Source: Verrucomicrobiales bacterium
GTDB taxonomy: Bacteria > Verrucomicrobiota > Verrucomicrobiia > Verrucomicrobiales > V1-33
Length of the DNA stretch: 42,317 nt
Assembly (NCBI GenBank): GCA_018003315.1
Contig: JAGNEJ010000036.1
Span: 1 to 42,317 of the forward strand
Reading direction: 5' to 3'
Made by a program: the position numbers and the translations under genes. Each line of letters begins with the position of its first letter. Position 1 is the stretch's first letter. Below are positions 247 through 17,030 of this stretch, piece after piece. The notes under the pieces were generated by a model that worked only from the letters and a program-made list of their open reading frames with translations, made no database searches and was not told the origin of the DNA.

Positions 247-3200
247 ATGAAACGCGAAGTTATTCATCCCGAGGAACCAAAGACCGGCAAGCGCTACTGG
301 CGCAGTCTGTCGGAGTTTGCCCAAACCCCGGAATTCCAGGAAAAACTGGATCGCGAATTCCTCGACGGGCAGTCGGAAATGAAGGATGAGGCCGAGGCGG
401 AAACCAGCCGCCGCACCTTTTTGAAGCTGATGGGGGCTTCCACCGCAATGGGGCTTGCGGCGTGCCGCAGGCCGGAACTGTTCATCAAGCCGTATGCCAA
501 AAGCCCGGAATGGATGATTCCAGGCAAGGCGCTCTATTACGCGACGGCCATGCCGCGCCTGGGTGGCTGCACTCCGCTGGTCGTGACCACCTTCGAAGGC
601 CGCCCCACTCACCTCGCTGGCAATCCGCTTCACCCGGAATCCAACGGCGGTCTGGACGTGTATGCCCAGGCTTCGGTGCTCAACCTCTACGATCGTGACC
701 GGGCCACCCAGTTTTTGAAGGGCGGCAAGGAATCAACCAAGGCGGATTTCAAAGCCGCACTGGCCGAAAAAAAGACCGCCTGGGCCAAGGACGGGGGCAA
801 GGGCGTGGCGATCCTGCTGGATCATAACAATTCTCCGACCCGGGCCCGGCTGCTGGGCGAGGTGAAGAAAAAGTTTTCTGCGGTCAAAACCTACCGCTAC
901 GAGGCGCTGGCTCCGGTGAACGTCCACGCCGCGACAAAACTTGCCTATGGCGATGGCGTGGCCGTCGTCCACCACCTGGACAAAGCGGAACGAGTCCTCA
1001 GTCTGGACTGCGATTTCATGGGATTGGACCGGATTGGCAATAACACCACCAGCGATTTCATGAAGGGGCGCAAGGCGGAAAAACCGGGCGACCCGCTCAA
1101 CCGGCTCTACGTGGCGGAAGCCCGCTACAGTGTGACAGGAGGCATGGCAGACCATCGGTTGCGCGTTGCCCCCAGCCAGATTTTCCGACTGGCCGCGGAA
1201 CTGGCTTCGCTCCTCGGCGCCGCTCCAGCCTTGGCGGGCAACGAATTGCCCAACGCCAAGGTCTCCAAGCCATGGGTGGAAGAAGTGGCAAAGGACCTGC
1301 TGGCCTCCAAGGGCAAGGCGGTGGTGGTCGCCGGACAAGGTCAACCGGTGGAGGTGCATCTGCTGGTGGCTGCGATGAATCAGGCACTGGGAGCGGTGGG
1401 TTCGGTCATCGAACTCAAACAAGGTGAAAAGGATGAGGCAGGAACCCTTTCCGACCTTGCCAAGGCCCTCGAATCCAAGGAGATCACCACCGTGATTGGC
1501 ATCACCGAAGCCGATCCCGTTTACGATGCTCCGGCGGATTTGAAGTTTGCTGAAAAACTCGGCGGCGCGGAACTGATCTTGCTGGCCACCCGCCACCGCA
1601 CCGCCACGGCGCGGGCTGCGGCCTGGGTGGTGCCCGGCACGCACTATCTGGAACAGTGGGGGGACGCACGCTCCACCGATGGCACTTACAGCATTGTGCA
1701 GCCGATGATCCTTCCGCTGCACTCGGGTGTTTCCGACATTGACCTGCTCAATTCCCTGATTGTGGACAAGGAGGAGGAGCCCGCACCGGCGATTCCCGGC
1801 ATGCCGGAGGAGCCGGGTCCCGCCCACAAGGCGGTGCGAGCCACCTTCGACGCCATTTGTCAGGCAGCGAACAAGGAGGAGGCATGGAATTTTGCCCTGC
1901 GCGATGGGTTCGTTCCCAATACGGCCTACCCAGCCGCGACGACCGCGGCGAACCCCGCCGCCGTTCAGGCCGTGGCAAATTACAAGCCGCTGGCAGCACC
2001 GACCGCCGAAACGGTTGAGGTGAGCTTTGTTCCCTGCTCCAAAGTGTATGACGGACGCTACATCAACAATGCCTGGCTGCAGGAAGCGCCGGACCCGGTT
2101 TCAAAAGTCACTTGGGACAATTGTGCACTGGTCAGTTTTCGCACCGCGATGGAAGTGCTGAAGCTGGAACGCAAATTCCTGAGCGTGGATCAGGAAGCGG
2201 CGGTGATCCAGCTCGACGTGAACGGAGCCAAGCAGTATTTCCCCGTCATCGTCATCCCCGGCCACGCGGACCATGTGATCACCGTGACATTGGGCTACGG
2301 ACAGGGAACCGGCGAGAACGGCCCCGGTCTGGTGGGGCAGGGGACCGGTTACAATGCCTACGGGCTGCGCACCACAGCACAGCCGTATTTCGCCTCCGCC
2401 AAGTTGCGCCGCACGGTGGATACCTACCGGCTGGCTCTGACCCAGGAACACAGCGCCATGTATGGACGCGCGCTGGTTCGTGAGGGCACCCAGGATGACT
2501 GGAAAGAAAATGCGGACTTTGTCCTGGAAATGGGCAGTGACGCCCACGTCCACGGCACCCGCGAGGAAAAGAAAAAGCAGCAGGAATTCTCCCTCTACAA
2601 GCCTGTCGGAGCCAAGAAAACAAAGGACGACGAAGGATACGAGGGGAGCATCGGAGCGGGAGAATCCGAGGCGGAAAAGGAGCGAGTCGCCCACCTCAAC
2701 GACTCCCTGCACCAGTGGAGCATGGTCATCGACCTCAACCGGTGCATCGGCTGCTCCTCCTGCCTGGTGGCCTGCCAAAGTGAAAACAACATTCCGATCG
2801 TCGGCAAGGATCAGGTCATTCGCGGACGTGAAATGCACTGGATTCGCATGGATCGGTATTTCGCCACCGACCTCGACGACCATGTGCTGCCGGAGACCAA
2901 GTCGCCCGTGTCCTGGTTGGTGGGCGAGGACAAAGACGTCTGGGATGAAGACTTCATGGACGAGCCGGAAATGGTCGTGCAGCCGGTGGGCTGCCAGCAC
3001 TGCGAAAGCGCGCCGTGCGAAACGGTCTGCCCGGTCAATGCCACCGTGCACAGCCCGGATGGTTTGAACCTCATGGTTTACAACCGTTGCATTGGCACCC
3101 GGTATTGCGCCAACAACTGCCCGTTCAAAGCGCGCCGTTTCAACTTTTTCGATTACAACAAGCGCAATCCGCTCGCGAAAAACTCCATCGCTGGCATCGA

Positions 3201-3753
3201 GCACAATAACCTCTATTCCGGCCCGCTGGGAGAACGCTGGGACACCGAACTCAGCAAGCTCCAGAAAAATCCGAACGTCACCGTGCGGATGCGCGGGGTC
3301 ATGGAAAAGTGCACCTACTGCCTCCAGCGGATCGAGGGTGCCCGCTCCGAAACCAGAGCCCGCGTTCGCAGAAATGCGGCCCTGGCATCCGGCAAGTTCG
3401 ACGAATCCCTCGAAATCAAGAAAACCGACCTGCGCATTAAAAAGGACGGCGTCAAGGTCGCCTGCCAGGAAGCCTGCCCCGCAGATGCCATCATGTTCGG
3501 CAACATTGCGGAAGGCTCCGCCGATACCGTCAACGCCTGGCGGAAAAACAGCCGGAACTACGAACTGCTCAGCTACCTCTCCATCAAGGCGCGGACCAGT
3601 TACCTCGGCCGCATCAAGAACCCCAACCAGGCACTGGTCGCGCGGATTGACTACGAGAAGAAAAAGGCCGGCAATGCCAGCAAGCTGCACCCTGTCAGCA
3701 CCCATGGTGCTGGCCACGCGGGCGGATCTGAGACTCCGGCTGCTCACCACTAA
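247..3753 (+). CDS. actB: ActB, iron-sulfur/molybdopterin-oxidoreductase-like subunit of alternative complex III
   Basis: 1168 residues. The N-terminal part has a Tat-type motif ([10 protein letters not shown], residues 54-63) followed by AAC near residue 73, a possible lipidation or cleavage site, as usual for ActB. The middle part is the molybdopterin-oxidoreductase-like region, which in ActB is known to have lost its cofactor. The C-terminal third is a polyferredoxin-like domain: [11 protein letters not shown] near residue 832, [14 protein letters not shown] near 915, a third cysteine group ending NNCPFKA, and CTYC plus CQEACPAD near 1022-1075. These should hold Fe-S clusters that pass quinol electrons to the ActA/ActE hemes. 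The start is preceded by a CCCCTTTCC tract rather than a Shine-Dalgarno. The C-terminus is His-rich. Fusion of the two halves is normal for this family. Confidence 0.93.
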
Positions 3754-3779: not shown

Positions 3780-5309
3780 ATGGCTACAGCCACTGACATT
3801 CACGACCAGGGCCACGCTCCAGCAGGCGGGGGAAACACGGTTGCCCAAGTGCTGACCCGGGAGCCTCTGGTGCTCAACAACCGGTCGATGCACTGGATCA
3901 CCGAGAAAATCGCCGGCATTGTGGAGAAGCCCCAGCCAAAATTGTGGTGGGCGCTCTTCGTCCCCGGACTTCTCCTCAGCGGGGTGATGGCGTTTTGTTT
4001 CTTCTATCTGATCGTCACCGGCATCGGCGTGTGGGGGACCAACCATCCGGTCGCCTGGTGCTGGGACATCACCAACTTCGTTTTCTGGATCGGTATCGGA
4101 CACGCCGGCACCCTGATTTCCGCCATTCTCTTCATCACCCGCCAAAAATGGCGCACCTCGGTCAATCGCGCTGCCGAGGCCATGACCCTCTTCGCGGTCA
4201 TGTGCGCCGGTCTGTTTCCCGCACTGCACGTGGGACGGGTGTGGATGGTTTACTTTCTGGCTCCGGTTCCAAATGCCAACGGCATCTGGCAAAACTTCAA
4301 ATCGCCGCTGCTCTGGGACGTTTTTGCCGTATCGACCTATTTCACCGTCTCCATCATTTTCTGGTATCTCGGACTTGTTCCGGACCTTGCCACGCTAAGG
4401 GATCGCTGCAAAGGCGGCATCAAAAAACTCCTCTACGGCATGTTTGCCTTGGGCTGGCGCGGTGGCAACCGGCAGTGGCGTCATTATGAAGTGGCTTATC
4501 TGCTGCTGGCGGCGCTGTCCACTCCGCTGGTGCTCTCGGTGCATACCGTCGTCTCCTTCGACTTCGCCACTTCCATTGTTCCCGGCTGGCATACCACCAT
4601 CTTCCCTCCCTATTTCGTGGCCGGTGCCATTTTCGGCGGTTTTGCCATGGTCCTCACCCTGATGATTCCGGCCCGGAAAATCTACGGCCTTCAGGATCTG
4701 CTCACGGCAAAGCACGTGGATAACATGACCAAGGTCATTGCCCTGACCGGTTCCATTGTCGGTTACGCCTATCTCATGGAGCTGTTTGTCGCCTGGTTTT
4801 CCGCCAGCGACTATGAGCTGGATGCCTTTCGCTGGCGGACCCTCTACGGCCCCTACACCTGGACCTACTATGCGATGTTCTTCTGCAACGTCATTGCCCC
4901 GCAGTTTTTCTGGGTCAAGCGCTGCCGGGAAAACCTCTGGATCGTGATGGCCGTCTGCATGTGCGTCAACGCGGGCATGTGGTATGAACGCTTCGTCATC
5001 ATCGTGACCACCCTGGCCCGCGACTTCCTCCCCGGTCAGTGGGATGACTACCATCCAAGCTGGGTGGAGATCTGGACCTTCATCGGGACGCTGGGCTTTT
5101 TCCTGATGCTCTTCCTTGTCTTCCTGCGCTTCCTGCCCGTCATCGCCATGAGCGAAGTCAAAGGCGTTCTCCCGGAGGCGGATCCGCACTACGATCCGGA
5201 ACGCGCAAAGCGCAAAAACACCCACCGTCCATACCTCAGAGAGGTGGATCGTCCCGACCCGGGCGAATGCATTCCAGAAGCCCCCCCAGGCAATCCCACA
5301 ATGGCCTGA
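3780..5309 (+). CDS. actC: ActC, NrfD-family integral membrane subunit of alternative complex III
   Basis: 509 residues with roughly ten hydrophobic segments and the NrfD/PsrC-like pattern expected of ActC, the membrane subunit that forms a quinol-binding site. The N-terminus is soluble and contains the typical ActC segment around [11 protein letters not shown] before the first membrane helix. The start follows CCCATTTTC directly, with no Shine-Dalgarno. It lies 26 bp after actB and 48 bp before actD, in the standard act order. Paralogous ActF is encoded three genes later, so the pair would give the complex two NrfD-like halves. Function is inferred from family and context. Confidence 0.92.
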
Positions 5310-5357: not shown

Positions 5358-5918
5358 ATGGCCCAACCAACACCACTCAAACGAGTGCATGGCTACCTCG
5401 CCGAATTCGGCAGCGCGAAGGATCTCTATCACGCTGCGGAACAGGTTCGGGATGCCGGATTTTCCCACTGGGACGTGCACAGTCCGTTTCCCATCCACGG
5501 CATGGACCACGCCATGGGGCTTCCCAAAAGCATCCTCTCCACCTTCGTGCTCATTGGCGGCACTACTGGCACTTTGACCGCGTTTCTCCTCCAGCACATT
5601 ACCCAGGTCATTCTCTACCCCACGGTTGTTCAGAGCAAACCGCACAACATCTTCACCATTCCCGCGTTCTTCCCGGTGATGTTTGAACTGACCATCCTGT
5701 TCTCGGCATTCACCTGTCTGTTTGGAGGGCTCGCCCTCATGAAACTTCCGCGGCTGCACCACCCGCTCTTCAATTCCGACAACTTCAAGCGGTTCTCGGA
5801 TGATGGGTTCTTCCTCTGCATCGAGGCGCGGGATCCCAAGTTTTCCATGGAGAAAACCAAGGCGTTCCTCGGTGAAATCGGCGGCACGAATTTGGAACTC
5901 GTGGAGGACGAAATCTAA
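5358..5918 (+). CDS. actD: ActD, DUF3341-type membrane subunit of alternative complex III
   Basis: 186 residues. The N-terminal soluble half (KRVHGYLAEFGSAKDLYHAAEQ) has the DUF3341 appearance. It is followed by a two-helix membrane hairpin (about residues 55-125) and a C-terminal soluble tail ending in a short ferredoxin-like fold (FFLCIEARDPKF...). ActD is a cofactor-free subunit of alternative complex III. It sits between actC and actE as in other act operons. The ATG at 5358 is 48 bp after actC, with no clear ribosome binding site. Confidence 0.9.
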   Translation: MAQPTPLKRVHGYLAEFGSAKDLYHAAEQVRDAGFSHWDVHSPFPIHGMDHAMGLPKSILSTFVLIGGTTGTLTAFLLQHITQVILYPTVVQSKPHNIFTIPAFFPVMFELTILFSAFTCLFGGLALMKLPRLHHPLFNSDNFKRFSDDGFFLCIEARDPKFSMEKTKAFLGEIGGTNLELVEDEI

Positions 5919-5931
5919 TACCGGCATCTTC

Positions 5932-6675
5932 ATGCGTTACTTTTTTCTCACCCTCATCCTGCTCGCTGCAACCGTCGTCGGAATCGCCGGATTCCGTGGC
6001 GACAAGAGCATTCGCCGCCCGTTGGAGCTGCTTCCGGACATGGACCAGCAGGCCAAGGTCAAAGCGCAAGGTTCCAACTACTTTTTTGCCGACGGACAGG
6101 GAGCTCGACAGCCGGTGGCTGGCAGCGTGCCCATGGGGCTGGCCGTTCCCGAGGGACGATCCGCGGAGGGATTTGTGAACAAGGATCACCCGGAATTTAG
6201 CACCGGTCACGGGGCCGACTACTACCACACCGGCAAGGTGGAAAACGGCACTTTCTGGGGCGACGGGTTTCCCAAACAGATCGAACTAAGCGAAGCGTTC
6301 CTCCGGCTGGGCAAAAAGCAGTACGACATTCACTGCTTTATCTGTCACGGAAAGTCCGGAGACGGCAAGGGAGTCCTCGCCATCCGCACAGACACTCCCA
6401 AGGCTGCCTACGGCATTGCAAACATCGCCAACTTTCTCGATGCCGCTTACAGCAATCCCGAAAACGTGGCCTACCGGCCCGCCGGCTCCATTTTCGACAC
6501 CATCACCAATGGCAAAGGGCTGATGGGCCGGTATGGCGACAAGCTAAACGTGCAGGAACGCTGGGCAATCATTGCCTATATCCGGTCGCTGGCGCTCTCC
6601 AAGGCCGCCCCGCTCTCCGATCCCGCGGTCAAACAAGCCTGGGATGCTGCGGTTGCCGCAGGACTTGTCAAATAA
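5932..6675 (+). CDS. actE: ActE, monoheme cytochrome c subunit of alternative complex III
   Basis: 247 residues counted from the ATG at 5932, 13 bp after the actD stop. The open frame extends upstream into actD, but that part is a shadow. The N-terminus is a hydrophobic signal/anchor (MRYFFLTLILLAATVVG). One heme c motif, CFICH, lies at residues 135-139, followed by GKSGDGKG and a class I cytochrome c fold with a GLMGRYGDKL segment that could supply the axial Met. ActE is the periplasmic monoheme subunit that takes electrons from ActA/ActB and passes them on, here probably to the oxidase encoded downstream. Confidence 0.92.
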   Translation: MRYFFLTLILLAATVVGIAGFRGDKSIRRPLELLPDMDQQAKVKAQGSNYFFADGQGARQPVAGSVPMGLAVPEGRSAEGFVNKDHPEFSTGHGADYYHTGKVENGTFWGDGFPKQIELSEAFLRLGKKQYDIHCFICHGKSGDGKGVLAIRTDTPKAAYGIANIANFLDAAYSNPENVAYRPAGSIFDTITNGKGLMGRYGDKLNVQERWAIIAYIRSLALSKAAPLSDPAVKQAWDAAVAAGLVK

Positions 6676-6702: not shown

Positions 6703-8055
6703 ATGAGCCACTACGTTGCTGTTACTGATCTGCCCGCTGGCGGGGAGAAGCTCCAGACCGACAAGATCGCTGCGCTGAAGACGATTTGCCTTCTGGTGGG
6801 CGTTGTCGGCGCCGTCATTTCCGCCATGCTGCTTTTCTTTGCTGGAAAGGGTCAGGGCTCCGTCGGCGATGCCTTCGCGTTCTCATGGCTCTTTGCCTTT
6901 GAAGTCTTTTTCACGCTTGCCGTGGGGGCGCTTTTTTGGTGCCTGCTGCACAACGCCTCCAACTCCGGCTGGGGGGTGGCGGTGCGGCGCGTCATGGAAA
7001 CAATGGCGAACAGTTTCGGACTGTTGTTCGTGCTTGGTCTGCCGCTGATTTTTGTCCCCAGCATCAGGGAAACAGTGTGGACCTGGATTGGTCACCATGC
7101 CGTCATTCACGAGACCAAAGTGGAAGGCGCCCTGACTCTGCGCGACCAGCTTCACGCCGGCGGGCATGAGACCCACCTCCTGTGGCATAAGTACCCATAC
7201 CTCAACCTCTGGGGTTCGGGGATTTTGCCCGGCTGGTGCATCCGTTACATCATTTTCTTCGCAGCCCTGGCCTTTGGCGCATGGAAACTGCGCAGCTACA
7301 GCATCGGACAGGACAACACGGGCAATGTGCGCCTCACCTTCTCCGCACGCAGATTCAGTTGCGGCTGGCTTCCAATCATGGCCGTGTGTTCCACCTTCGC
7401 CGCCGTGGACTGGATCAAGACCCTCAACTATAAATGGTTTTCCACCATGTGGGGGGTCAATGTCTTTGCCGCCTCCGCACTTGCAAGCATGGCGCTCATC
7501 ATCATCCTGGTCGGTTTCCTCAAAAAAACCGGGCACTTCAAGCACGTCGTCTCCGATGAGCACTTCCACCTCATGGGGAAACTCATGCTCGCCTTCGTCA
7601 TCTTTTGGGCCTACATCGCTTTCAGCCAGTACTTTCTCATCTGGTATGCGAATGTTCCGGAAGAGACCCAGTTCTACGCCATTCGCAACACCGGCGGCTG
7701 GTGGTATTTCAGCATTGCACTAACGTTTCTGCATTTTGTGCTGCCGTTTGTCGCCCTTTTGAAGCGCGATGCCAAAAAGAACCTCAACGTCATCATGGGC
7801 ATCGCGGCGTTTGTGCTCTTCGTGCACCTGCTGGAGGTTTACTGGTGGGTGCTCCCGCAAAGGGGGCCGGTGGTTTACGATGACAGCGCCGCCAGCAGCA
7901 TCGGCCGTCTCTTCGCGGATTTTGGCATGGACCTGCTCGCGCTGGCGACCTTTGCCGGGCTTGCCGGTTTTCTCTTCTTCCGCCAGCTTGGCTCAGCCAG
8001 CATTTATCCCTGCGGTGATCCGCGCCTTGAGGAATCCGTCAACCTCGCCAACTAA
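6703..8055 (+). CDS. actF: ActF, NrfD-family membrane subunit of alternative complex III
   Basis: 450 residues with about ten predicted membrane helices, related to ActC but shorter and without the long soluble N-terminus. Recognisable ActF-like segments include WFSTMWGVNVFA and FSQYFLIWYANVPEE in the second half. It probably provides the second quinol/proton-path half of the membrane part of the complex. The ATG follows CTATTTTCCACCTTCACCG. It is 27 bp after actE and 32 bp before the next small gene, so one transcript is likely. Confidence 0.91.
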   Translation: MSHYVAVTDLPAGGEKLQTDKIAALKTICLLVGVVGAVISAMLLFFAGKGQGSVGDAFAFSWLFAFEVFFTLAVGALFWCLLHNASNSGWGVAVRRVMETMANSFGLLFVLGLPLIFVPSIRETVWTWIGHHAVIHETKVEGALTLRDQLHAGGHETHLLWHKYPYLNLWGSGILPGWCIRYIIFFAALAFGAWKLRSYSIGQDNTGNVRLTFSARRFSCGWLPIMAVCSTFAAVDWIKTLNYKWFSTMWGVNVFAASALASMALIIILVGFLKKTGHFKHVVSDEHFHLMGKLMLAFVIFWAYIAFSQYFLIWYANVPEETQFYAIRNTGGWWYFSIALTFLHFVLPFVALLKRDAKKNLNVIMGIAAFVLFVHLLEVYWWVLPQRGPVVYDDSAASSIGRLFADFGMDLLALATFAGLAGFLFFRQLGSASIYPCGDPRLEESVNLAN

Positions 8056-8087: not shown

Positions 8088-8483
8088 ATGGACGAGCATC
8101 CAGGAGACACTCTCGGCAAACGCTTCCTCACCTTCTGCGGAAGTATCCTCGCCATTCTTGCCTTCGGCGCGATTCTTTATTTTGGTGTTCGCGCCTTCGG
8201 CCCAGGAGACGGGGAAGTCGCCGATGGGGGAGCCGGTGAATTCCGGACGGAAAAACGCCGTCTCGTTGAGAAGGAACAGGATGCCGAACTCGGCAAATTC
8301 GCTAAGGATGAGGCCAAGGGCACGGTTCAGATGCCGGTCGATCACCTATTCTCCTACGCTGTCGCGATCCTCAAAAAGCAGCAGGAGTCCAAGAGCAAAG
8401 TGGGCGTGCCAGGTGCCGCTCCCGTCGTGCCCGAAGGCGGCACGCCCGCCCATGATCCGAATCTTTCCAAGTTCGAAGGCTAA
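8088..8483 (+). CDS. Small single-helix membrane protein in the respiratory operon
   Basis: 131 residues. One membrane helix (about residues 15-35) is followed by a charged periplasmic segment and a Pro/Ala-rich tail. The motif KGTVQMPVDHLFSYAV (residues about 78-93) resembles a segment I have seen in small accessory proteins encoded among heme-copper oxidase genes, but I cannot name the family. It lies where some operons carry the optional small subunit ActG, between actF and the ccoN-like gene, so it may be a complex III or oxidase accessory subunit. The start follows CCCTTTTCGC and a purine-poor leader. Confidence 0.8.
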   Translation: MDEHPGDTLGKRFLTFCGSILAILAFGAILYFGVRAFGPGDGEVADGGAGEFRTEKRRLVEKEQDAELGKFAKDEAKGTVQMPVDHLFSYAVAILKKQQESKSKVGVPGAAPVVPEGGTPAHDPNLSKFEG

Positions 8484-8521: not shown

Positions 8522-10024
8522 ATGAGCCAGGAAGTCACACCGCCGCAACGTCCACCGCTTTTCAGCCCGGAGGACATTCTCCAGCGGGCCGCCATCGACA
8601 AGACCACGAGGCTCCCAGTGTTGTTTTTCTACACCAGCGCTGCGGTATGGCTGATTATTGCCTCGCTGCTGGGACTCATCTCCTCGTTCAAGCAGTTTGC
8701 CCCGGGGTTGTTTGACTATGAATTCCTCAACTTCGGACGGAGCCAGCCGGCCTTCATCAACGCGCTCATCTACGGTTGGGCGATGCAGGCGGGCTTTGGC
8801 ACGATCATCTGGATCATGGCCCGCCTTTGCAGGGTTGCTCTCAAGAATCCCATCACGATCCTCGTGGCCGGTCACTTCTGGAATCTGGGCGTCACCATCG
8901 GCGTCTTCGGCATTCTCTCGGGCAATGGCACCGCTGCCAAGTGGCTGGAATTTCCCCCGGCTGTCTGGCCCATCCTGCTGCTCTCCTACCTGCTGATCAC
9001 GGTATGGATGGTTGTCATGTTCACCGCACGCCGCAAAGGACACGTGTTCATCAGCCAATGGTATATTCTCGCTGCCTGCTTCACGTTCCCTTGGGCCTAT
9101 TTCACGGCCAATCTGGTGATCAATACCCTGAAAGGGGCCGGAGTCATGGGTCCCGCCACAGCCTCCTGGTATGCCGGCAACCTGACGTTCCTCTGGATGG
9201 TGCCTGTGGGACTGGCGTCGGCTTACTTCATCATTCCCAAAATTGTTGGCAGGCCGATCTATTCCTACCATTTGGCAAAGCTGGCTTTTTGGACCCTGCT
9301 GGCGGTTGGAGGGTGGACCGGCATCCAGGAACACCTCGGAGGTCCGCTGCCCGCCTGGATGACCGCCGTTTCCGGAGGCGCACAGTTTCTCATGCTCATT
9401 CCCGTGGTGGCCGTAGGCATCAATCATTACCGGACCGTGGAAGGGAATCATGACCTGATTCAATTCAGTCCCGCGCTGCGCTTCACCTTCTTCGGGGCCG
9501 TGGGCTACAGCGTAGCCTGCGGAGTCATGGCCATCCTAGGCACGGCCACCATCGGGCGGTTTGGTCAGTATTCGATCGCCGGTGATGGTGCTTCATTCCT
9601 CGCGGTTTACATGTTTTTCACGATGATGATGTTCGGGGCGATCTATTTCATTGTCCCGCGTGTCACCGGCTGTGAATGGCTGAGCGGATCGCGCATCCGG
9701 TTTCATTTCTGGGCCTCCGCGTATGGCAGCATTGCCGTTGCGACGCTGCTCGTGGTCGGCGGTCTGTTTTACGGCAGTTCCGCAGCCAACTGGGATCGGG
9801 ATTTCCATGTGCCGGTGGAACTCGCCCGGAGTTTCCGCATCGGAACAACCATCGGCTGGGTTTTCCTGCTAGTGGCGAACGTATCCTTTTTCAACCATCT
9901 GCGGCTCATGGTCATGAACAAGGGACGGCAGAACGGCACCGCCACCCGTTTTCATGAGGCAGGCCATCCTGAAGCGGATCATGCCGAACTTGTTGTCACC
10001 CACGAGGGGGCAGAACCTGTATAA
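8522..10024 (+). CDS. CcoN-like heme-copper oxidase subunit I lacking all heme and copper ligands
   Basis: 500 residues from the ATG at 8522. A GTG at 8486 adds 12 residues and is less likely, because the ATG has the operon's usual TTTTCC leader. The fold is clearly CcoN: about 12 helices, with segments such as FGRSQPAFIN, SWYAGN, RPIYSYHLAK and FGAIYFIVP aligning without gaps to cbb3 oxidase subunit I. Yet the six histidines that bind heme b, heme b3 and CuB are all replaced: F78 (normally RPLHTN), G219 (WYGHN), Q269 and E270 (the HH pair), A357 and F359 (GHVH). It cannot be a normal oxygen reductase. It is followed by CcoO- and CcoP-like cytochromes, so it may be a structural membrane scaffold that docks them between complex III and the A-type oxidase. 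The family call is firm; the role is inference. Confidence 0.88.
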   Translation: MSQEVTPPQRPPLFSPEDILQRAAIDKTTRLPVLFFYTSAAVWLIIASLLGLISSFKQFAPGLFDYEFLNFGRSQPAFINALIYGWAMQAGFGTIIWIMARLCRVALKNPITILVAGHFWNLGVTIGVFGILSGNGTAAKWLEFPPAVWPILLLSYLLITVWMVVMFTARRKGHVFISQWYILAACFTFPWAYFTANLVINTLKGAGVMGPATASWYAGNLTFLWMVPVGLASAYFIIPKIVGRPIYSYHLAKLAFWTLLAVGGWTGIQEHLGGPLPAWMTAVSGGAQFLMLIPVVAVGINHYRTVEGNHDLIQFSPALRFTFFGAVGYSVACGVMAILGTATIGRFGQYSIAGDGASFLAVYMFFTMMMFGAIYFIVPRVTGCEWLSGSRIRFHFWASAYGSIAVATLLVVGGLFYGSSAANWDRDFHVPVELARSFRIGTTIGWVFLLVANVSFFNHLRLMVMNKGRQNGTATRFHEAGHPEADHAELVVTHEGAEPV

Positions 10025-10047: not shown

Positions 10048-10788
10048 ATGGACAGCCTGCGCAATTTCGTTTTTGGTCTCGGTGCCTGCTTTGGCGTTCC
10101 GTGGCTGCTACTCATCGTTCTGCCCTATCTGAAAGAAAAATCCAGACAGCCGGTGCCCTACACCTGGGCTGAATACCAGGCCACGCCAAAAGGCCAGCCC
10201 GCAGGCCCGGAAAACGACGTGGACTTCTATGAAAAGCCGGAACTGAAGGGAAGCTTCTACCCTTCCGCCGTTTCGGGTTCCCAGGCCCGCGGTGCGGTGG
10301 TGTATGCCGCAGAGGGGTGTGCCCAGTGTCACACCCAGGTCATCCGCCCCGTGGATCAGTTCAAACGCGGCATCGGTGCGGACCAGGAAGGCAAAGGACT
10401 CAGTGAAACCCGTGCCACGACGGCTTGGGATTATCTAGGCGAAGATTTTGCCATGATCGGCCAGCGCCGACTGGGGCCTGATCTGGCCAACGCGGGCTAC
10501 CGCTTCAAATCTGCCGGTGAACTGCATGCCAAATTGTATGCACCCTCATCCATTGTCTCCTGGACCAACCACCCGCATTACCCAGGGCTGTATGATGTCA
10601 TTCCCGTCGAAGGCAAGCGCCGTGCGGATGCCATCGACCTGCCGGCTTCGGTTTCCATCCCGGCGGGACGCCAGGTGGTTCCCACGGCGGATGCCAAGGC
10701 CCTGGCGGAATACGTGTTGGGACTGAAGCGCGACCTGCCATTGCCCATCGCCATCAGCGGTGCATCCGTGGCTGACAAAAAGAAGTGA
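10048..10788 (+). CDS. ccoO: CcoO-like membrane-anchored monoheme cytochrome c
   Basis: 246 residues with one N-terminal helix (about residues 5-27), then a periplasmic domain with heme motif CAQCH (91-95) in the CcoO context GCAQCHTQVIRP, followed by QRRLGPDLANAG as in CcoO. Canonical CcoO proteins supply the axial Met in a later SxMPxYxWL segment. Here the matching stretch reads SSIVSWTNHPHYPGLY and has no Met, so the heme may have a different sixth ligand, perhaps a His of HPHY. The gene follows the ligand-less CcoN-like gene by 23 bp. It probably acts as an electron carrier rather than as part of a functional cbb3 oxidase. Confidence 0.85.
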   Translation: MDSLRNFVFGLGACFGVPWLLLIVLPYLKEKSRQPVPYTWAEYQATPKGQPAGPENDVDFYEKPELKGSFYPSAVSGSQARGAVVYAAEGCAQCHTQVIRPVDQFKRGIGADQEGKGLSETRATTAWDYLGEDFAMIGQRRLGPDLANAGYRFKSAGELHAKLYAPSSIVSWTNHPHYPGLYDVIPVEGKRRADAIDLPASVSIPAGRQVVPTADAKALAEYVLGLKRDLPLPIAISGASVADKKK

Positions 10789-10803: not shown

Positions 10804-11496
10804 ATGAGTGACAATATCGACTACGAGCACACCATGAACGTCGCTGGAGCCCATGCGGCTGTGGCGCGGGAAAAGGAGGACCAACCCGTGAGGAACGCCC
10901 CGCTGGGGAACCTTCCGCTCATTCTCTCCGCGATCATTCTGCTGGTCGGAGGCAGCTACGTCGGAGGAAACCTGAAGGGTGCCTATGCCAAGGAACGCCC
11001 GCTGGACGCCAGCGCCGCGCCGGAACTGCCTCCGGATGTAAAATGGCTCAAGGATGGCGAGGCAGCCTACACCACCACTTGTGGCGGCTGTCACCAAGGC
11101 AACGGGGTGGGGAATCCCGGTTCCGGTTATCCTCCGCTGGCAGGATCGGAGTTCGTCACCGGCGGCGAAAAACGCCTTTGTGCCATTGTTCTCAAAGGCC
11201 TCGCTGGTCCCATCCACGTGAAGGGGCAGGCTTTTGGCAGCGCCGTCATGAATGCCAAGGGCGGTCAAAACCTGACCGACAAACAGGTGGCACAAATCGT
11301 TTCCTACATCCGCAATTCCTGGGGAAACAAGGGGACCTTCGTCATGGATGATCAAATCAAGGCGCTGAATGCTGAAATTTCCGGCCTTGCATCACCCCTG
11401 CCGACTTCCGAATTGGACAAGATCAAGGCGGATGAAAACCTGCCTCCTAGCAAGAAGCCGCTCGCCCCTGGCGGTGCCCCGGCCCCAGTTAAGTGA
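10804..11496 (+). CDS. CcoP-like/class I membrane-anchored cytochrome c
   Basis: 230 residues. The N-terminal cytoplasmic tail is followed by one membrane helix (about 38-60) and a cytochrome c domain with CGGCH at residues 93-97. An SAVMNAKGG segment should provide the axial Met, and the LTDKQVAQIVSYIRNSW helix is typical of class I cytochrome c. Normal CcoP has two hemes and this protein has one. It is third in the CcoN-CcoO-CcoP order, 15 bp after the CcoO-like gene and 25 bp before subunit I of the A-type oxidase, so it is a plausible donor to the CuA or blue-copper centre of that oxidase. The C-terminus is Pro/Ala/Lys-rich. Confidence 0.85.
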   Translation: MSDNIDYEHTMNVAGAHAAVAREKEDQPVRNAPLGNLPLILSAIILLVGGSYVGGNLKGAYAKERPLDASAAPELPPDVKWLKDGEAAYTTTCGGCHQGNGVGNPGSGYPPLAGSEFVTGGEKRLCAIVLKGLAGPIHVKGQAFGSAVMNAKGGQNLTDKQVAQIVSYIRNSWGNKGTFVMDDQIKALNAEISGLASPLPTSELDKIKADENLPPSKKPLAPGGAPAPVK

Positions 11497-11521
11497 TTTC
11501 ACCAGCAACCCCCATTTTTTC

Positions 11522-13402
11522 ATGAGCGCAGCAGCAACAGCCCACGGTGATGAATCCCATGATCACGATCATGGTCATGAACACCACGAAGTTTCGTGGA
11601 TCAGAAAATACGTCTTCAGCACCGATCACAAGGTAATCGGCATCCAATATGGCATCAGCGGATTGATCTTCCTCGCCATTGGATTCATCCTGATGCTGGC
11701 CATGCGTCACAGCATTGCCCACACCGGGCAGCCGCTGCCGGACTGGATCCGCACGCTGCTCGGCGTGCTGGGGCCGGACTTTCTGGAGCGTTGGGCGCCC
11801 AACGGAGTCATGGACGGGCAACTCTACAACATGTTCGGAGCCATGCACGGCACCATCATGGTCTTTTTTGGCGTGGTGCCGCTCGGAGTCGCCTGTTTTG
11901 GAAATTTTGTCATGCCGCTGCAGATTGGTGCGCCCGACATGGCGTTTCCGCGCCTGAACATGTGGAGTTACTGGCTGTTTTTCATTTCCGGCGTGCTCAT
12001 GTTTGGCAGCTTCTTCGTCCATGAAGGGGCGGCCCAGTCCGGATGGACCAACTACTCTCCGCTGGCCTCAACGGTGGGTGCGCATTCGGCCAATCAGTGG
12101 TGGCACGGGCAAACCATCTGGCTGCTGGCCATGGTCTTCAACATCTCCGCCTCACTGCTCGGCGCGGTGAACTTCATCACCACTGTCATGAACCTGCGTG
12201 CCAAGGGGATGACTTGGATGCGCGTCCCGTTCTTCTCCTGGGCGATGATGGTCATTGCTTTCCTCCTGCTCCTGGCGTTCCCTCCGCTTGAAGTGGCCGC
12301 CCTGCTGCAGCTTTCGGACCGAGTGTTTGGTTCCTCGTTCTACCTGCCCAGTGGATTGTTCGTGCAGGGACAGCACATGGATCTTTCTGGTGGCGGCAGT
12401 CCGCTGCTCTACCAGCATTTGTTCTGGTTCCTGGCTCATCCGGAGGTTTACGTGCTCATCCTTCCTGGAATTGCCATCTGTGCGGAAATCATTCCCGCCA
12501 ACACCCGGCGGCCGCTCTGGGGCTATAAATCCATGGTGGGAGCGGTGCTGGTTCTTGGATTCCTCAGCTTCATTGTCTGGGCGCACCACATGTATATGAC
12601 GGGAATGGGACAAACCATCTCCACCTTCTTCCAGTTCACCACCGTCATCATTTCCGTGCCCTCGGTCATTCTCCTGACCTGTCTCATGATTTCGCTCTGG
12701 GGCGGTTCCATTCGCTTTACCGTTCCCATGCTCTGGGCCACCGCATTCCTTCCCATGTTCGGCATCGGGGGTCTCACCGGCATCCCCCTCGCATTCAACC
12801 TGGTGGATCTCTTCCTGCATGACACCCTCTATGTCATCGGTCACTTCCATTATGTCGTGGCTCCGGGGACCATTTTTGCCATGTTTGCCGGCATCTACCA
12901 CTGGTTTCCAAAGGCCACTGGCAGGCACATGAACACGTTGTTGGGGCATCTCCACTTCTGGCCCAGCCTCTTGGCGATGAATTTGATTTTCGGTCCCATG
13001 TTCATTCAGGGCATGGCCGGCTTCCACCGCAGATGGTACAATGGCGGACTTGGCTTCCCCGCCACCAGCGAGAAATATCTCTATCTCAATGATGTCATGA
13101 CCTGGGGCGCCTATCTCCTGGCCGCCGGACAGATTCCGTTCATCATCAATTTTTTCGCCAGCATCTTTGCTGGACGCAAGGTCAAGAGTGACAATCCCTG
13201 GCACGCTACCACCCTGGAATGGGCCACGCCCACACCGCCGCCGCATGGGAATTTTACCACGGAACCAGTGGCCAATCGCAGCCCCTACGAATACAGCTCG
13301 CCGCACAACCCGGATGAGGATTTCCTGCCCCAGTGGGCGCCCCTCACCGAGGGTGAAAAGTCAGCGGCTGCACCGGCGGCTGTTCATGCGGGAGCACACT
13401 GA
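11522..13402 (+). CDS. ctaD: Cytochrome c oxidase subunit I (A-type heme-copper oxidase)
   Basis: 626 residues from the ATG at 11522, which has a CCATTTTTTC leader; the 51 codons upstream overlap the preceding gene and are rejected. Metal ligands are intact: H109 (low-spin heme), H306 with the crosslink Tyr in HPEVY (306-310), H355/H356 (CuB), and H441 and H443 in GHFHYV. D-channel residues D139 (GAPDMAFPRLN) and E308 are present. The K-channel lysine of the VPTGIK motif is replaced by Leu (VPSVIL, L384), which is unusual for an A-type enzyme. The first 22 residues are very His/Asp-rich. This should be the working terminal oxidase of the operon, reducing O2 with cytochrome or blue-copper electrons. 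Confidence 0.95.
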   Translation: MSAAATAHGDESHDHDHGHEHHEVSWIRKYVFSTDHKVIGIQYGISGLIFLAIGFILMLAMRHSIAHTGQPLPDWIRTLLGVLGPDFLERWAPNGVMDGQLYNMFGAMHGTIMVFFGVVPLGVACFGNFVMPLQIGAPDMAFPRLNMWSYWLFFISGVLMFGSFFVHEGAAQSGWTNYSPLASTVGAHSANQWWHGQTIWLLAMVFNISASLLGAVNFITTVMNLRAKGMTWMRVPFFSWAMMVIAFLLLLAFPPLEVAALLQLSDRVFGSSFYLPSGLFVQGQHMDLSGGGSPLLYQHLFWFLAHPEVYVLILPGIAICAEIIPANTRRPLWGYKSMVGAVLVLGFLSFIVWAHHMYMTGMGQTISTFFQFTTVIISVPSVILLTCLMISLWGGSIRFTVPMLWATAFLPMFGIGGLTGIPLAFNLVDLFLHDTLYVIGHFHYVVAPGTIFAMFAGIYHWFPKATGRHMNTLLGHLHFWPSLLAMNLIFGPMFIQGMAGFHRRWYNGGLGFPATSEKYLYLNDVMTWGAYLLAAGQIPFIINFFASIFAGRKVKSDNPWHATTLEWATPTPPPHGNFTTEPVANRSPYEYSSPHNPDEDFLPQWAPLTEGEKSAAAPAAVHAGAH

Positions 13403-13446: not shown

Positions 13447-15006
13447 ATGGAGATTCCCTACACCGTCAAACCAAGGCCCGACACCGGGCTTCCCAACCCC
13501 AAGATCGGCATCTGGCTGTTTCTGGCATCCGAAGTCATGCTGTTCGGCGGCCTGTTCTCTGCATACATCTTTTTGCGCCTGGGGGCGGATTACCCCTGGC
13601 CATTCCACGATCTCGTGGTGCCGCCGGGGCTGTTTAACACGGCCAACCTCATCATTTCCTCGGTGACGGTGGTCATGGCTTGGGCATCGCTCAAGATGCG
13701 CAAGTACGGGGCCTACAAAATTTACATGTCGATCACGCTCCTCTGCGCTGTGATCTTCATGGCGATCAAGTTCTTTGAATACAAGGGCAAGTTCGAACAC
13801 TACGGAGTCACCTTCAAGGACGGCTCCGTCGTGGAGGGACATGTCGGACATCATAAGCAGGGGGACAAAATCGTGTTTGGCGAAGGAAAGACGCTGAGCT
13901 TTCATCTGGACCACAGCGATCTGCGGATCCTCGACCACCTGGCGGTGAAAAACCCCGCGTTTGATGCGCAGAGCCATGCCGCAGACAATCATCTCTACCA
14001 TGCCCTGCATGAGTCGAAGCCTGTCAAGGTGCGTTACACTCCGAAAAAAATGCCGTTTGAAGGGGTGGCGAACTACGATGCCAAAACGGGGAAATTCAAG
14101 GTTCCGTACAAGGATTGGAAGGACGATGTCTCCCAGGAGGCGGAACTGACGGAAGCCTGGCTCAAGGAGCGGAAAAAGGAGTGGTGGAATTTTTACAAAT
14201 TGGGCAACAAACTCGACCGGCCCGGACGTGAAGAACGCTGGGCGAAGGTGGCTGCCGGGAGCATGACCAAGGAGGAAGCGCAGAAGGCCGATTCCGATTT
14301 CACACTGGAGCGCCTGCCCGATACCATTCGGGTCGAGATCATCGGAGAACCATTGCTGCTTTGGGTGGATGAACGGGAACTGTCCGGTTATGACAATGCT
14401 TCCCTGACATTCCGGGACCATTCCAAAGTAGAAGGCGCTCTGGTCACCGACAAGATTGAATTCATTCCAGACCGCGTGGACCTCCGGCAGGCAAAGAACA
14501 TGGAGAAATCCACGGTGTGGAAATACATGCCGGGGCTGAAGGATGAATTCTTTAAGTCGCGCAAAGACACCATTACCCGCCTGAAGGAGGACAAACCCTG
14601 GCTGTTTCATGGCGACAAGGCGATTGATCCCGACGACCACTCCGTTTCCCACGGCGACGGCGATGTGACTCGCTACTCGGATCGCTATGACCACGAAGAC
14701 AATCTCAAATTCGGCGATCTGGAGCACACTCCATCCATTGAGTTTGACCGCGCTGACAAGCGTTTCTTCTCCAATTTCACCCCCCGCTATAGTCCCTACT
14801 ACGCCATCTATTTCACCATGACCGGTCTTCACGGTCTCCACGTCATCGGGGGTGCCCTGGTCCTGGGATGGTTCCTTTTCACCGGCAGGAAAATGTATGA
14901 GACCAATCCCGAACAGCTCTGCAACCGGGTTGAGGTGGGTGGACTCTTCTGGCACTTCGTCGATCTCATCTGGATCTTTCTCTTCCCGGTTTTCTACCTC
15001 ATGTAA
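13447..15006 (+). CDS. ctaE: Cytochrome c oxidase subunit III with a large hydrophilic insertion
   Basis: 519 residues, more than twice the usual length of about 200. Residues 1-114 give the first helices (IGIWLFLASEVMLFGGLF is diagnostic) and residues 446-519 the last ones (YAIYFTMTGLHGLHVIGG and the FWHFVDLIWIFLFP end). Between them lies a charged, non-membrane insertion of about 330 residues. It contains two similar short motifs, VTFKDGSVVEGHV (121-133) and LTFRDHSKVEGALV (320-333), which hint at a duplicated beta unit. The membrane framework joins cleanly on either side in one frame, so this is an insertion and not an assembly artefact as far as I can see. The insert may cap the complex or contact a partner. 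Confidence 0.93.
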   Translation: MEIPYTVKPRPDTGLPNPKIGIWLFLASEVMLFGGLFSAYIFLRLGADYPWPFHDLVVPPGLFNTANLIISSVTVVMAWASLKMRKYGAYKIYMSITLLCAVIFMAIKFFEYKGKFEHYGVTFKDGSVVEGHVGHHKQGDKIVFGEGKTLSFHLDHSDLRILDHLAVKNPAFDAQSHAADNHLYHALHESKPVKVRYTPKKMPFEGVANYDAKTGKFKVPYKDWKDDVSQEAELTEAWLKERKKEWWNFYKLGNKLDRPGREERWAKVAAGSMTKEEAQKADSDFTLERLPDTIRVEIIGEPLLLWVDERELSGYDNASLTFRDHSKVEGALVTDKIEFIPDRVDLRQAKNMEKSTVWKYMPGLKDEFFKSRKDTITRLKEDKPWLFHGDKAIDPDDHSVSHGDGDVTRYSDRYDHEDNLKFGDLEHTPSIEFDRADKRFFSNFTPRYSPYYAIYFTMTGLHGLHVIGGALVLGWFLFTGRKMYETNPEQLCNRVEVGGLFWHFVDLIWIFLFPVFYLM

Positions 15007-15024: not shown

Positions 15025-15393
15025 ATGTCCGACCCTTCCGCCCAGACCTCCCATGACGATGGCCACGATGACCATCACTGGAATCACCACATCAAGACCT
15101 ATCTAAAAATCGGCGGCATCCTGATTTTTTGCACCGCATTTACTTGGATCGCGGCCTATTACATCGATTTGCGAGACCGTCACATCAACATTGCTTTCGG
15201 CCTGCTCATTGCGGTGTTCAAAGCCAGCCTGGTGGCCTTGATCTTCATGCACCTCAAGGATGAGCGGAGACTCATCTATAAAGTGCTGGTCTTCACCGCC
15301 ATCTTTGTCACCGGTCTTGTCTTTTTGATCCTCTACACCCAGCACGATCCCATTCCCCACGACAAGACAAAGAACCTGATCTACAGCAAATAG
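15025..15393 (+). CDS. ctaF: Cytochrome c oxidase subunit IV
   Basis: 122 residues with three membrane helices and the subunit IV pattern (IAFGLLIAVFKASLVALIFMHLKDE, with the conserved Lys-Ala and MHLK). The N-terminus is strongly His/Asp-rich within residues 10-23, like subunit I. It lies 18 bp after subunit III. The family is a small structural subunit of caa3/aa3-type oxidases without cofactors. Confidence 0.88.
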   Translation: MSDPSAQTSHDDGHDDHHWNHHIKTYLKIGGILIFCTAFTWIAAYYIDLRDRHINIAFGLLIAVFKASLVALIFMHLKDERRLIYKVLVFTAIFVTGLVFLILYTQHDPIPHDKTKNLIYSK

Positions 15394-15845: not shown

Positions 15846-17030
15846 ATGGGAATTCTGAACAAACTTTTTGGCATCCAGGATTGTGCTTCGGTTCACGGCG
15901 AACAGCTCGACTGGATGCTCGAACTGATCCACTGGTTCATGGCCGTGCTGTTTGTAGGCTGGTCCATTTTTCTGGTGTATGTGCTCGTGCGCTATCACCG
16001 GCGGAACAACCCGCAGGCGATCCATTCCGGAGTCAAGAGCCACGCTTCCAGCCACCTCGAGGTGGGGGTGATCATCGTGGAAGTCGTTTTGTTGCTCGGT
16101 TTTGCCTTTCCACTGTGGGGTCAGCGCGTGGACGACATTCCCGTGGATCCAGACGTGCAGGTGCGGGCGGTGGGGCAGCAGTTCAGTTGGACATTTCATT
16201 ATCCGGGAGTGGATGGCAAATTCGGCAACACCAGCCCCTTCAATTACAGTGGCAGCAACCCCGCCGGAATTGATCCCGATGACCCCAACGGCAAAGATGA
16301 CGTCACCGCTGCCGAGTTGGTGCTTCCCGTGAAGAAAAAAATTGTCATTGGAGTCACCTCCAAGGACGTGATTCACAATCTGGCCCTCAAGGCTGCACGA
16401 ATGGCGACGGATGCAAATCCCGGTCAGATGAACCGCATCTGGTTTATTCCAACCAAGGTTGGCGAAAGTGAAATCATCTGCGGACAATTGTGCGGTCCCG
16501 GCCATGCGAACATGCTCGGCAAGCTGCGGATTGTCAGCGACAAAGAATACGGCGATTGGGCCAAGGAACAGAACACCTTTGGTGGTGGCACCGCGGCCGA
16601 AACTCCGGCTGCGCCAACAGGAGGGGCAACGGCTCCCGCGGCGGACTCGGTGGAAATCGCCATCGGCGTCATTCCCGGAGTCTTGAAGTTCGACAAGGCA
16701 GGATTCGAAGTGCGTTCCGGACAGAAGGTCAAACTGGTTATCAAAAACGAGAAGGATCCGATTCCTCACAACATCATGATCGGCAAACCCGGTTCCGTTG
16801 AGAAAATGACCTCTGCGGCCAATGCCGGAACCTCCAATCCGGACTACATGACCAAGATGCAGTGTTTCCCGGAGTCTCCCGACATTCTGTTCAAAGGTAC
16901 CAAACTGGTCAACCCTGGCCAGAGTGATGTGCTTGAATTCGTGGCTCCCGAAGCCGGCGAATACCCATACATCTGTGGATTCCCAGGCCACCCCATGCTG
17001 ATGCGTGGAATCATGAAGGTGACCAAATAA
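15846..17030 (+). CDS. ctaC: Cytochrome c oxidase subunit II fused to a C-terminal azurin-like cupredoxin
   Basis: 394 residues. Two membrane helices (about 27-50 and 73-92) are followed by the CuA domain with H177 (DVIHN), then CGQLCGPGHANM giving C212, C216, H220 and M223; position 214 is Gln where Glu is usual. After an Ala/Pro/Thr-rich linker (about 245-268) comes a second copper-type domain, residues about 270-394. It has H308 (PHNIMI) and CGFPGHPMLM giving C377, H382 and M386, the azurin/auracyanin C-x4-H-x3-M arrangement. Where caa3 oxidases fuse cytochrome c here, this enzyme carries a blue-copper domain, probably the electron entry module. Unusually, subunit II is the last gene of the oxidase set, after subunits I, III and IV. 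Confidence 0.94.
   Translation: MGILNKLFGIQDCASVHGEQLDWMLELIHWFMAVLFVGWSIFLVYVLVRYHRRNNPQAIHSGVKSHASSHLEVGVIIVEVVLLLGFAFPLWGQRVDDIPVDPDVQVRAVGQQFSWTFHYPGVDGKFGNTSPFNYSGSNPAGIDPDDPNGKDDVTAAELVLPVKKKIVIGVTSKDVIHNLALKAARMATDANPGQMNRIWFIPTKVGESEIICGQLCGPGHANMLGKLRIVSDKEYGDWAKEQNTFGGGTAAETPAAPTGGATAPAADSVEIAIGVIPGVLKFDKAGFEVRSGQKVKLVIKNEKDPIPHNIMIGKPGSVEKMTSAANAGTSNPDYMTKMQCFPESPDILFKGTKLVNPGQSDVLEFVAPEAGEYPYICGFPGHPMLMRGIMKVTK

Follow-up and report, generated by a model that had tools for sequence, protein, structure and literature searches.

The stretch of DNA analysed here (the window, 42,317 nucleotides) is a whole contig of a Verrucomicrobiales bacterium (GCA_018003315.1, JAGNEJ010000036.1). 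It begins at actB, the first gene found of an operon for alternative complex III (ACIII), and actA would lie beyond the contig start. The following genes were annotated.

247-3753, + strand: ActB of ACIII, fused B1/B2 iron-sulphur protein, with 4Fe-4S domains and a weak Tat signal; at the same place in all act loci
3780-5309, + strand: ActC, NrfD-like (PF03916, 73.9 bits)
5358-5918, + strand: ActD (PF11821, 198.9 bits)
5929-6675, + strand: ActE, mono-haem cytochrome c (PF13442, 41.1 bits)
6703-8055, + strand: ActF, NrfD-like, without a Pfam match and named from position and homology to act loci
8088-8483, + strand: small protein with a single TM, encoded between actF and N, without a Pfam match; a small ORF lies at the same place in many relatives
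8522-10024, + strand: ligand-less CcoN homologue (pseudo-CcoN, here N), with F78, G219, G263, Q269, E270, A357 and F359 in place of the ligands and the Tyr
10048-10788, + strand: CcoO/FixO-like membrane-anchored mono-haem cytochrome c (O; PF02433, 37.4 bits, cut-off 29.6), CXXCH kept
10804-11496, + strand: CcoP-like membrane-anchored cytochrome c with one haem (P; PF00034/PF13442; TIGR00782, 27.8 bits), CXXCH and Met kept
11519-13402, + strand: CoxA, A-type oxidase subunit I (PF00115, 415 bits)
13447-15006, + strand: CoxC, subunit III (PF00510), 519 aa with a long insertion, as judged from lengths in relatives
15025-15393, + strand: CoxD, subunit IV (PF03626)
15846-17030, + strand: CoxB with a CuA domain (PF00116), followed at the C-terminus by an additional cupredoxin domain (PF00127)

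The order actB-actC-actD-actE-actF is that of an ACIII operon, and it is followed by the small TM protein, N, O, P, coxA, coxC, coxD and coxB. In several relatives the small TM protein carries a motif like W-I/V-D-x-x-x-G-x-x-x-x-P-I-x-x-A-M (compare L227:8570-8941). The extra domain of CoxB, placed after CuA, is of the plastocyanin/azurin type (PF00127), and the CoxB proteins of relatives, 250-330 aa long, seemingly lack it. The insertion in CoxC is hydrophilic. CoxC has 400-600 aa in most Verrucomicrobiales with a ligand-less N, and 266-292 aa in L184 (full-ligand N) and L166. Because subunit III contacts ACIII in Flavobacterium, the insertion could be a docking domain.

The ORF of N is open throughout and encodes 500 aa. 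The protein matched Pfam COX1 (PF00115) with 118.8 bits (cut-off 34.8), and its top phmmer match among PDB chains was CcoN (3mk7, E 3.5e-25). In that alignment, which has no gaps near these sites, H60, H207, Y251, H257, H258, H345 and H347 of Pseudomonas stutzeri CcoN align to F78, G219, G263, Q269, E270, A357 and F359 of N, and an independent family alignment recovered the same seven columns. In cbb3 oxidase H60 and H347 are the ligands of low-spin haem b, H345 that of haem b3, H207, H257 and H258 those of CuB, and Y251 is the cross-linked Tyr. Both alignments thus confirmed the original prediction that all six haem and copper histidines of CcoN are substituted without gaps. Its statement that the flanking motifs are conserved held as well: FGR..P, SWYAGN, WTG, P.W and GAIYFIVP are still present. 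It had overlooked a seventh substitution, that of the active-site Tyr in TM7 (equivalent to Y251), which is G263 in N. None of the three CcoN cofactors (CuB, haem b and haem b3) can be bound by N through the known ligands.

The fold was examined with an AlphaFold2 model built with 57 relatives (pLDDT 93, pTM 0.92). The model superposed on 3mk7_D with Z 48.4 and an rmsd of 2.0 A over 443 residues at 22% identity (Foldseek and VIA-align), and CcoN chains outranked nitric oxide reductases and A- and B-type oxidases as structural matches. The CcoN fold is therefore intact in the predicted structure. N belongs to the 12-TM COX1 fold but lacks the six His required for the haems and CuB, and also the active-site Tyr in TM7 that defines cbb3 oxidases; on the NCBIfam ccoN equivalog it scored 103.1 bits against a cut-off of 583. 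By these measures N is classed as a true CcoN homologue but no cbb3 oxidase, and would work like a cbb3 pseudo-subunit. A separate full-ligand CcoN-CcoO-like fusion is encoded on another contig of the source genome.

Orthologues were collected from 388 genomes of the phylum and from a scan of 84,980 species, in which the best 80 loci were all from Verrucomicrobiota. This gave 152 distinct act-linked N orthologues in Verrucomicrobiae. The typical locus order was actBCDEF-(small TM protein)-N-O-P. The order N-O-P was present in 144 of the 152 loci, and the remainder meet contig ends or have no O or P match. The original prediction had proposed to see how often a ligand-less CcoN occurs with CcoO and CcoP in act operons; the survey found O and P with the ligand-less N wherever the DNA reaches, except for a few loci without a P match. 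All six His and the Tyr were kept in 26 of the 152. These full-ligand proteins (e.g. L095, L106, L182) share the slot, the neighbours and a single clade with N of the window, but differ from it in having the six His and the Tyr.

The remaining 126 had no complete active site in any case: the Tyr and the CuB trio were found in none of them, and the haem b3 His in one. None of the six His remained in 24, the window included, and the nearest relative of the window protein (L116, 62% identical) is likewise without any of the six. Seven, of Chthoniobacterales type, keep only both low-spin haem b ligands. A further 67 retain H78 but not H359, the other ligand of the low-spin haem b. In one further variant, L062, the seven sites read QQGRHQQ, with H270 as the sole remaining ligand.

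We analysed the history of the losses with a careful tree of N (56 rows), from which the seven ligand and Tyr columns had been removed. The long-branch rows L049, L057, L064, L066, L070 and L073 were omitted; less certainty attaches to where they belong and to individual residues in them. The tree needs four changes between the full and the lost state: at L041, which lies beside full-ligand L044 (support 100/98); at L047, beside full-ligand L108 (97/95); at an f6 clade of ten rows (100/100), whose neighbours are full-ligand f6 rows; and at the clade that holds the window (100/99). A single ancient loss was rejected, as forcing all ligand-less rows into one clade cost 145 units of lnL (p-AU 1.7e-14). 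The outgroup CcoNs all read HHYHHHH at the seven sites; therefore, the direction of change is loss. The N tree thus places ligand loss on at least four branches. A quick tree of ActC, weakly supported in places, also scattered the ligand-less rows, with 11 changes; the exact count was not used.

Within the window clade, H78 and H359 both persist in Chthoniobacterales. Most Verrucomicrobiales retain H78, and F78 takes its place in the window group. This pattern, from a single clade, suggests that the active site was lost before the low-spin haem. One gene slot thereby shows a series from all ligands, through the low-spin haem b pair only (Chthoniobacterales) and one His, to none.

The retained histidines raise the alternative that N still binds a haem, by different ligands or by one His only, and serves as a haem b relay. 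Both low-spin ligands at seven loci and H78 alone at 67 are in its favour, and so is the gain of two His, H118 and H459, in many Verrucomicrobiales rows. The protein of the window, however, has neither H78 nor H359, and no residue was at least 85% conserved in the ligand-less rows of the family alignment yet variable in the full-ligand rows. H118 and H459 did not occur together in excess of independence. Shifted or replacement ligands were therefore rejected: those at shifted positions, which the original prediction had named as the finding that would count against it, were looked for in the alignment and none was shared. The loss of the ligand positions was also set against chance. Over the 126 positions with conservation of 95% or more in full-ligand orthologues, the median retention in ligand-less rows was 76%, and the four least retained were Y263, H269, H357 and H359 (0-2% of the ligand-less rows). 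Retention was 7% for R75, which sits in the haem-facing RLRP motif, 11% for H270 and 15% for H219, while G446 was replaced by W in 70%, a change consistent with the interior being filled. The changes at R75 and G446 also speak against a relay. We regard a haem b relay as improbable.

Whether N is maintained or is a gene on its way out was judged from reading frames and substitution rates. In favour of decay, N has lost its catalytic residues, and row L041, where the change is recent, sits on a long branch (0.52; that of its sister is 0.13). The frames of N were, however, intact in more than 100 genomes, with an internal stop in one assembly, and in the large clades the losses date far back. 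Simple NG86 counts over 29 close pairs (about 25 of them ligand-less), some of them near saturation, gave dN/dS of 0.02-0.15 for ligand-less N and 0.013-0.074 for full-ligand N; O, P and ActF from the same pairs were mostly similar to or above N. The low dN/dS and the intact frames led us to reject the pseudogene reading, and we give decay hardly any credence. N is, from these counts, under purifying selection as a family. The earlier proposal of selection for the fold without the catalytic site is supported by the structural match of the model together with dN/dS.

The cytochrome partners were examined in the same loci. Each O and each P found among the act-linked loci has one CXXCH, and the axial Met of P was present in every P with a readable segment. 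CcoP of cbb3 oxidases is normally di-haem; P of the window has a single CXXCH. O of the window exceeds the Pfam FixO cut-off but falls below that of NCBIfam ccoO, and its axial Met motif reads NHPHY instead of NMPxY. Full-ligand loci have the Met motif of O (MPxY or a near variant) unaltered; it is lost in the window, in L116, where NSPRY is found instead, and in many rows of Akkermansiaceae type. The NHPHY sequence suggests a His ligand or an altered haem potential, and O may be changing its role in part of the ligand-less range. The original prediction that CcoO- and CcoP-like cytochromes are kept stands in that both accompany N with their CXXCH, but has to be modified for the axial Met of O, which is lost in the window. 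An extra P-like cytochrome c gene lies between actF and N in L083-L085, L088-L091 and others of Akkermansiaceae type.

A coxA gene was found downstream at 89 of 125 ligand-less loci and at 2 of 26 full-ligand loci (raw Fisher p 1e-9). Phylogenetically independent pairs gave no signal for this association, with four pairs only and thus little power. As the raw association vanishes under independent pairs, we rejected the idea that coxA in the operon drove ligand loss. At 36 ligand-less loci no coxA was present in the downstream DNA examined, some segments of which end early. At the genome level, 27 of the 28 ligand-less genomes and 21 of the 24 full-ligand ones yielded a coxA-like A-type gene; these figures show no clear contrast, and a restriction of the loss to genomes with an A-type oxidase was rejected. 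In the sole ligand-less genome without an A-type match (G385), another haem-copper oxidase gene is present but broken up by contig ends. These data do not establish the proposed coupling of ACIII to the A-type oxidase through N, since the coxA association is phylogenetically confounded and 36 loci are without downstream coxA.

The full-ligand relatives point to the ancestral function. In one genome (G001, 1.7 Mb, 99% complete) no haem-copper oxidase gene besides the full-ligand act-linked N was found, and no cydA, so that this N is very likely the working terminal oxidase. Relatives of the ancestral type, in which this slot codes for a protein with the Tyr and six His, are in all likelihood genuine oxidases linked to ACIII.

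From the fold, the ligand loss, the selection and the linkage to ACIII, O and P, we infer a scaffold role for N. We consider it probable that N is a dead descendant of the CcoN that partnered ACIII, and a membrane platform for the O and P cytochromes beside ACIII that feeds an A-type oxidase. N would descend from a cbb3-type subunit that once served as the oxidase partner of ACIII. Its present task would be to keep O and P in place at ACIII, while it passes no electrons itself. Electrons from menaquinol would run through ActB, ActA, ActE and the CcoP/CcoO-like haems to CuA of an A-type oxidase, whose genes either adjoin this operon or lie at another site of the genome. The scaffold part is weakened because H78 is kept alone at 67 loci, which a pure scaffold leaves unexplained, and the reading as a whole because O has lost its axial Met in several lineages. 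Full-ligand genomes have A-type oxidases almost as often as ligand-less ones, which counts against the A-type acceptor.

Two other roles were weighed. N could be a structural or assembly factor outside the electron flow, which stabilises ACIII or matures the A-type oxidase, with O and P independent of it. A structural role has been proposed for the COX1-like protein of Acetobacter (for CtaB) and for the deranged bc1 (for Complex I) (PMC10715153), and ligand-less N also occurs at loci without coxA in the downstream DNA examined. The position of O and P directly 3' of N, with haem c kept in every locus that has them, would be expected if N still carried them and argues against this role, which we hold to be unlikely but worth keeping in mind. 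The other role is that N-O-P passes electrons to a different acceptor, such as a soluble cytochrome c, a B-type oxidase or N2O reductase, for which N would provide the platform for docking. The 36 loci lacking downstream coxA would fit it, as would the nos cluster inside the act cluster of M. caldifontis (PMC11102522), but coxACDB follows N-O-P directly in the window and in most Verrucomicrobiales. A different acceptor seems to us slightly more doubtful even than the haem b relay.

The ligand loss bears on Methylacidiphilum, whose ACIII-linked genes have been described as a cbb3-type oxidase (PMC6688271, PMC8498564) and tied to high oxygen affinity (PMC6688271). In the act-linked N of Kam1 (L227:8956-10398) and of SolV (L073), the residues at the seven sites are S, E, S, S, H, F and V. 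Five of the six ligands and the Tyr are missing, and one CuB His (H270) is kept. The model of Kam1 N (pLDDT 85) still matched CcoN structurally with Z 47.9. These proteins have the same operon position as N of the window and are likewise ligand-less, but they are more diverged (about 21% identity) and retain H270. No other CcoN was found in the Kam1 or SolV genomes. Their other haem-copper genes comprise two near 432-435 bits, with SolV's A-type by its match to CoxA of the window, and one or two at 250-270 bits, taken as B-type by score; NorB lies beside NorC in SolV, and a gene of the same score is present in Kam1. There are four pmoA copies in the Kam1 genome (G152) and three in the SolV genome (G042).

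Judged by its residues, the "cbb3-type oxidase" beside ACIII in Kam1 and SolV cannot be a cbb3 oxidase. Since the act-linked N is ligand-less and no other CcoN was found, the measured oxygen affinity must come from other oxidases. In the open-access literature, adjacency of ACIII and cbb3 genes was found for Methylacidiphilum and for Opitutaceae, the latter cited for a C-type oxidase beside ACIII, with no report of missing ligands. We see about even chances that a cbb3-like oxidase of Verrucomicrobiae was converted repeatedly into a cofactor-free scaffold, giving a wire of ACIII, pseudo-cbb3 and aa3 with at least four losses, Methylacidiphilum included. If so, the Methylacidiphilum protein was mistaken for a working high-affinity oxidase. 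The family has been named cbb3 oxidase by similarity, and predictions of oxygen affinity for many Verrucomicrobiota may thus be wrong. The use of an oxidase subunit for something besides catalysis becomes testable in cultured relatives.

Among known systems, CcoN of cbb3 oxidases resembles N in fold, in motif context and in the CcoO- and CcoP-like cytochromes encoded next to it. The ACIII-caa3/aa3 supercomplexes of Rhodothermus and Flavobacterium (PMC5928083, PMC8361435) share with the window an ACIII operon with an A-type oxidase alongside. In the accessible parts of these accounts no set like CcoN-O-P is described between the complexes. In the window, gene order is what suggests an association of ACIII with the A-type oxidase. 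The COX1-like protein of Acetobacter and the deranged bc1 of acidophilic Acetobacteraceae have, like N, lost metal ligands while the subunit was kept. The Acetobacter protein clusters with ctaB and is not CcoN-like, and the available part of that report describes no linkage to ACIII or to CcoO/CcoP (PMC10715153). The original claim of an undescribed kind of pseudo-oxidase therefore has to be narrowed, since a ligand-less COX1-like gene is known from Acetobacter; for the missing CcoN ligands, searches of the open-access literature found no report. Ligand-less respiratory subunits are already known, and the ACIII-linked ligand-less CcoN adds a variant to them.
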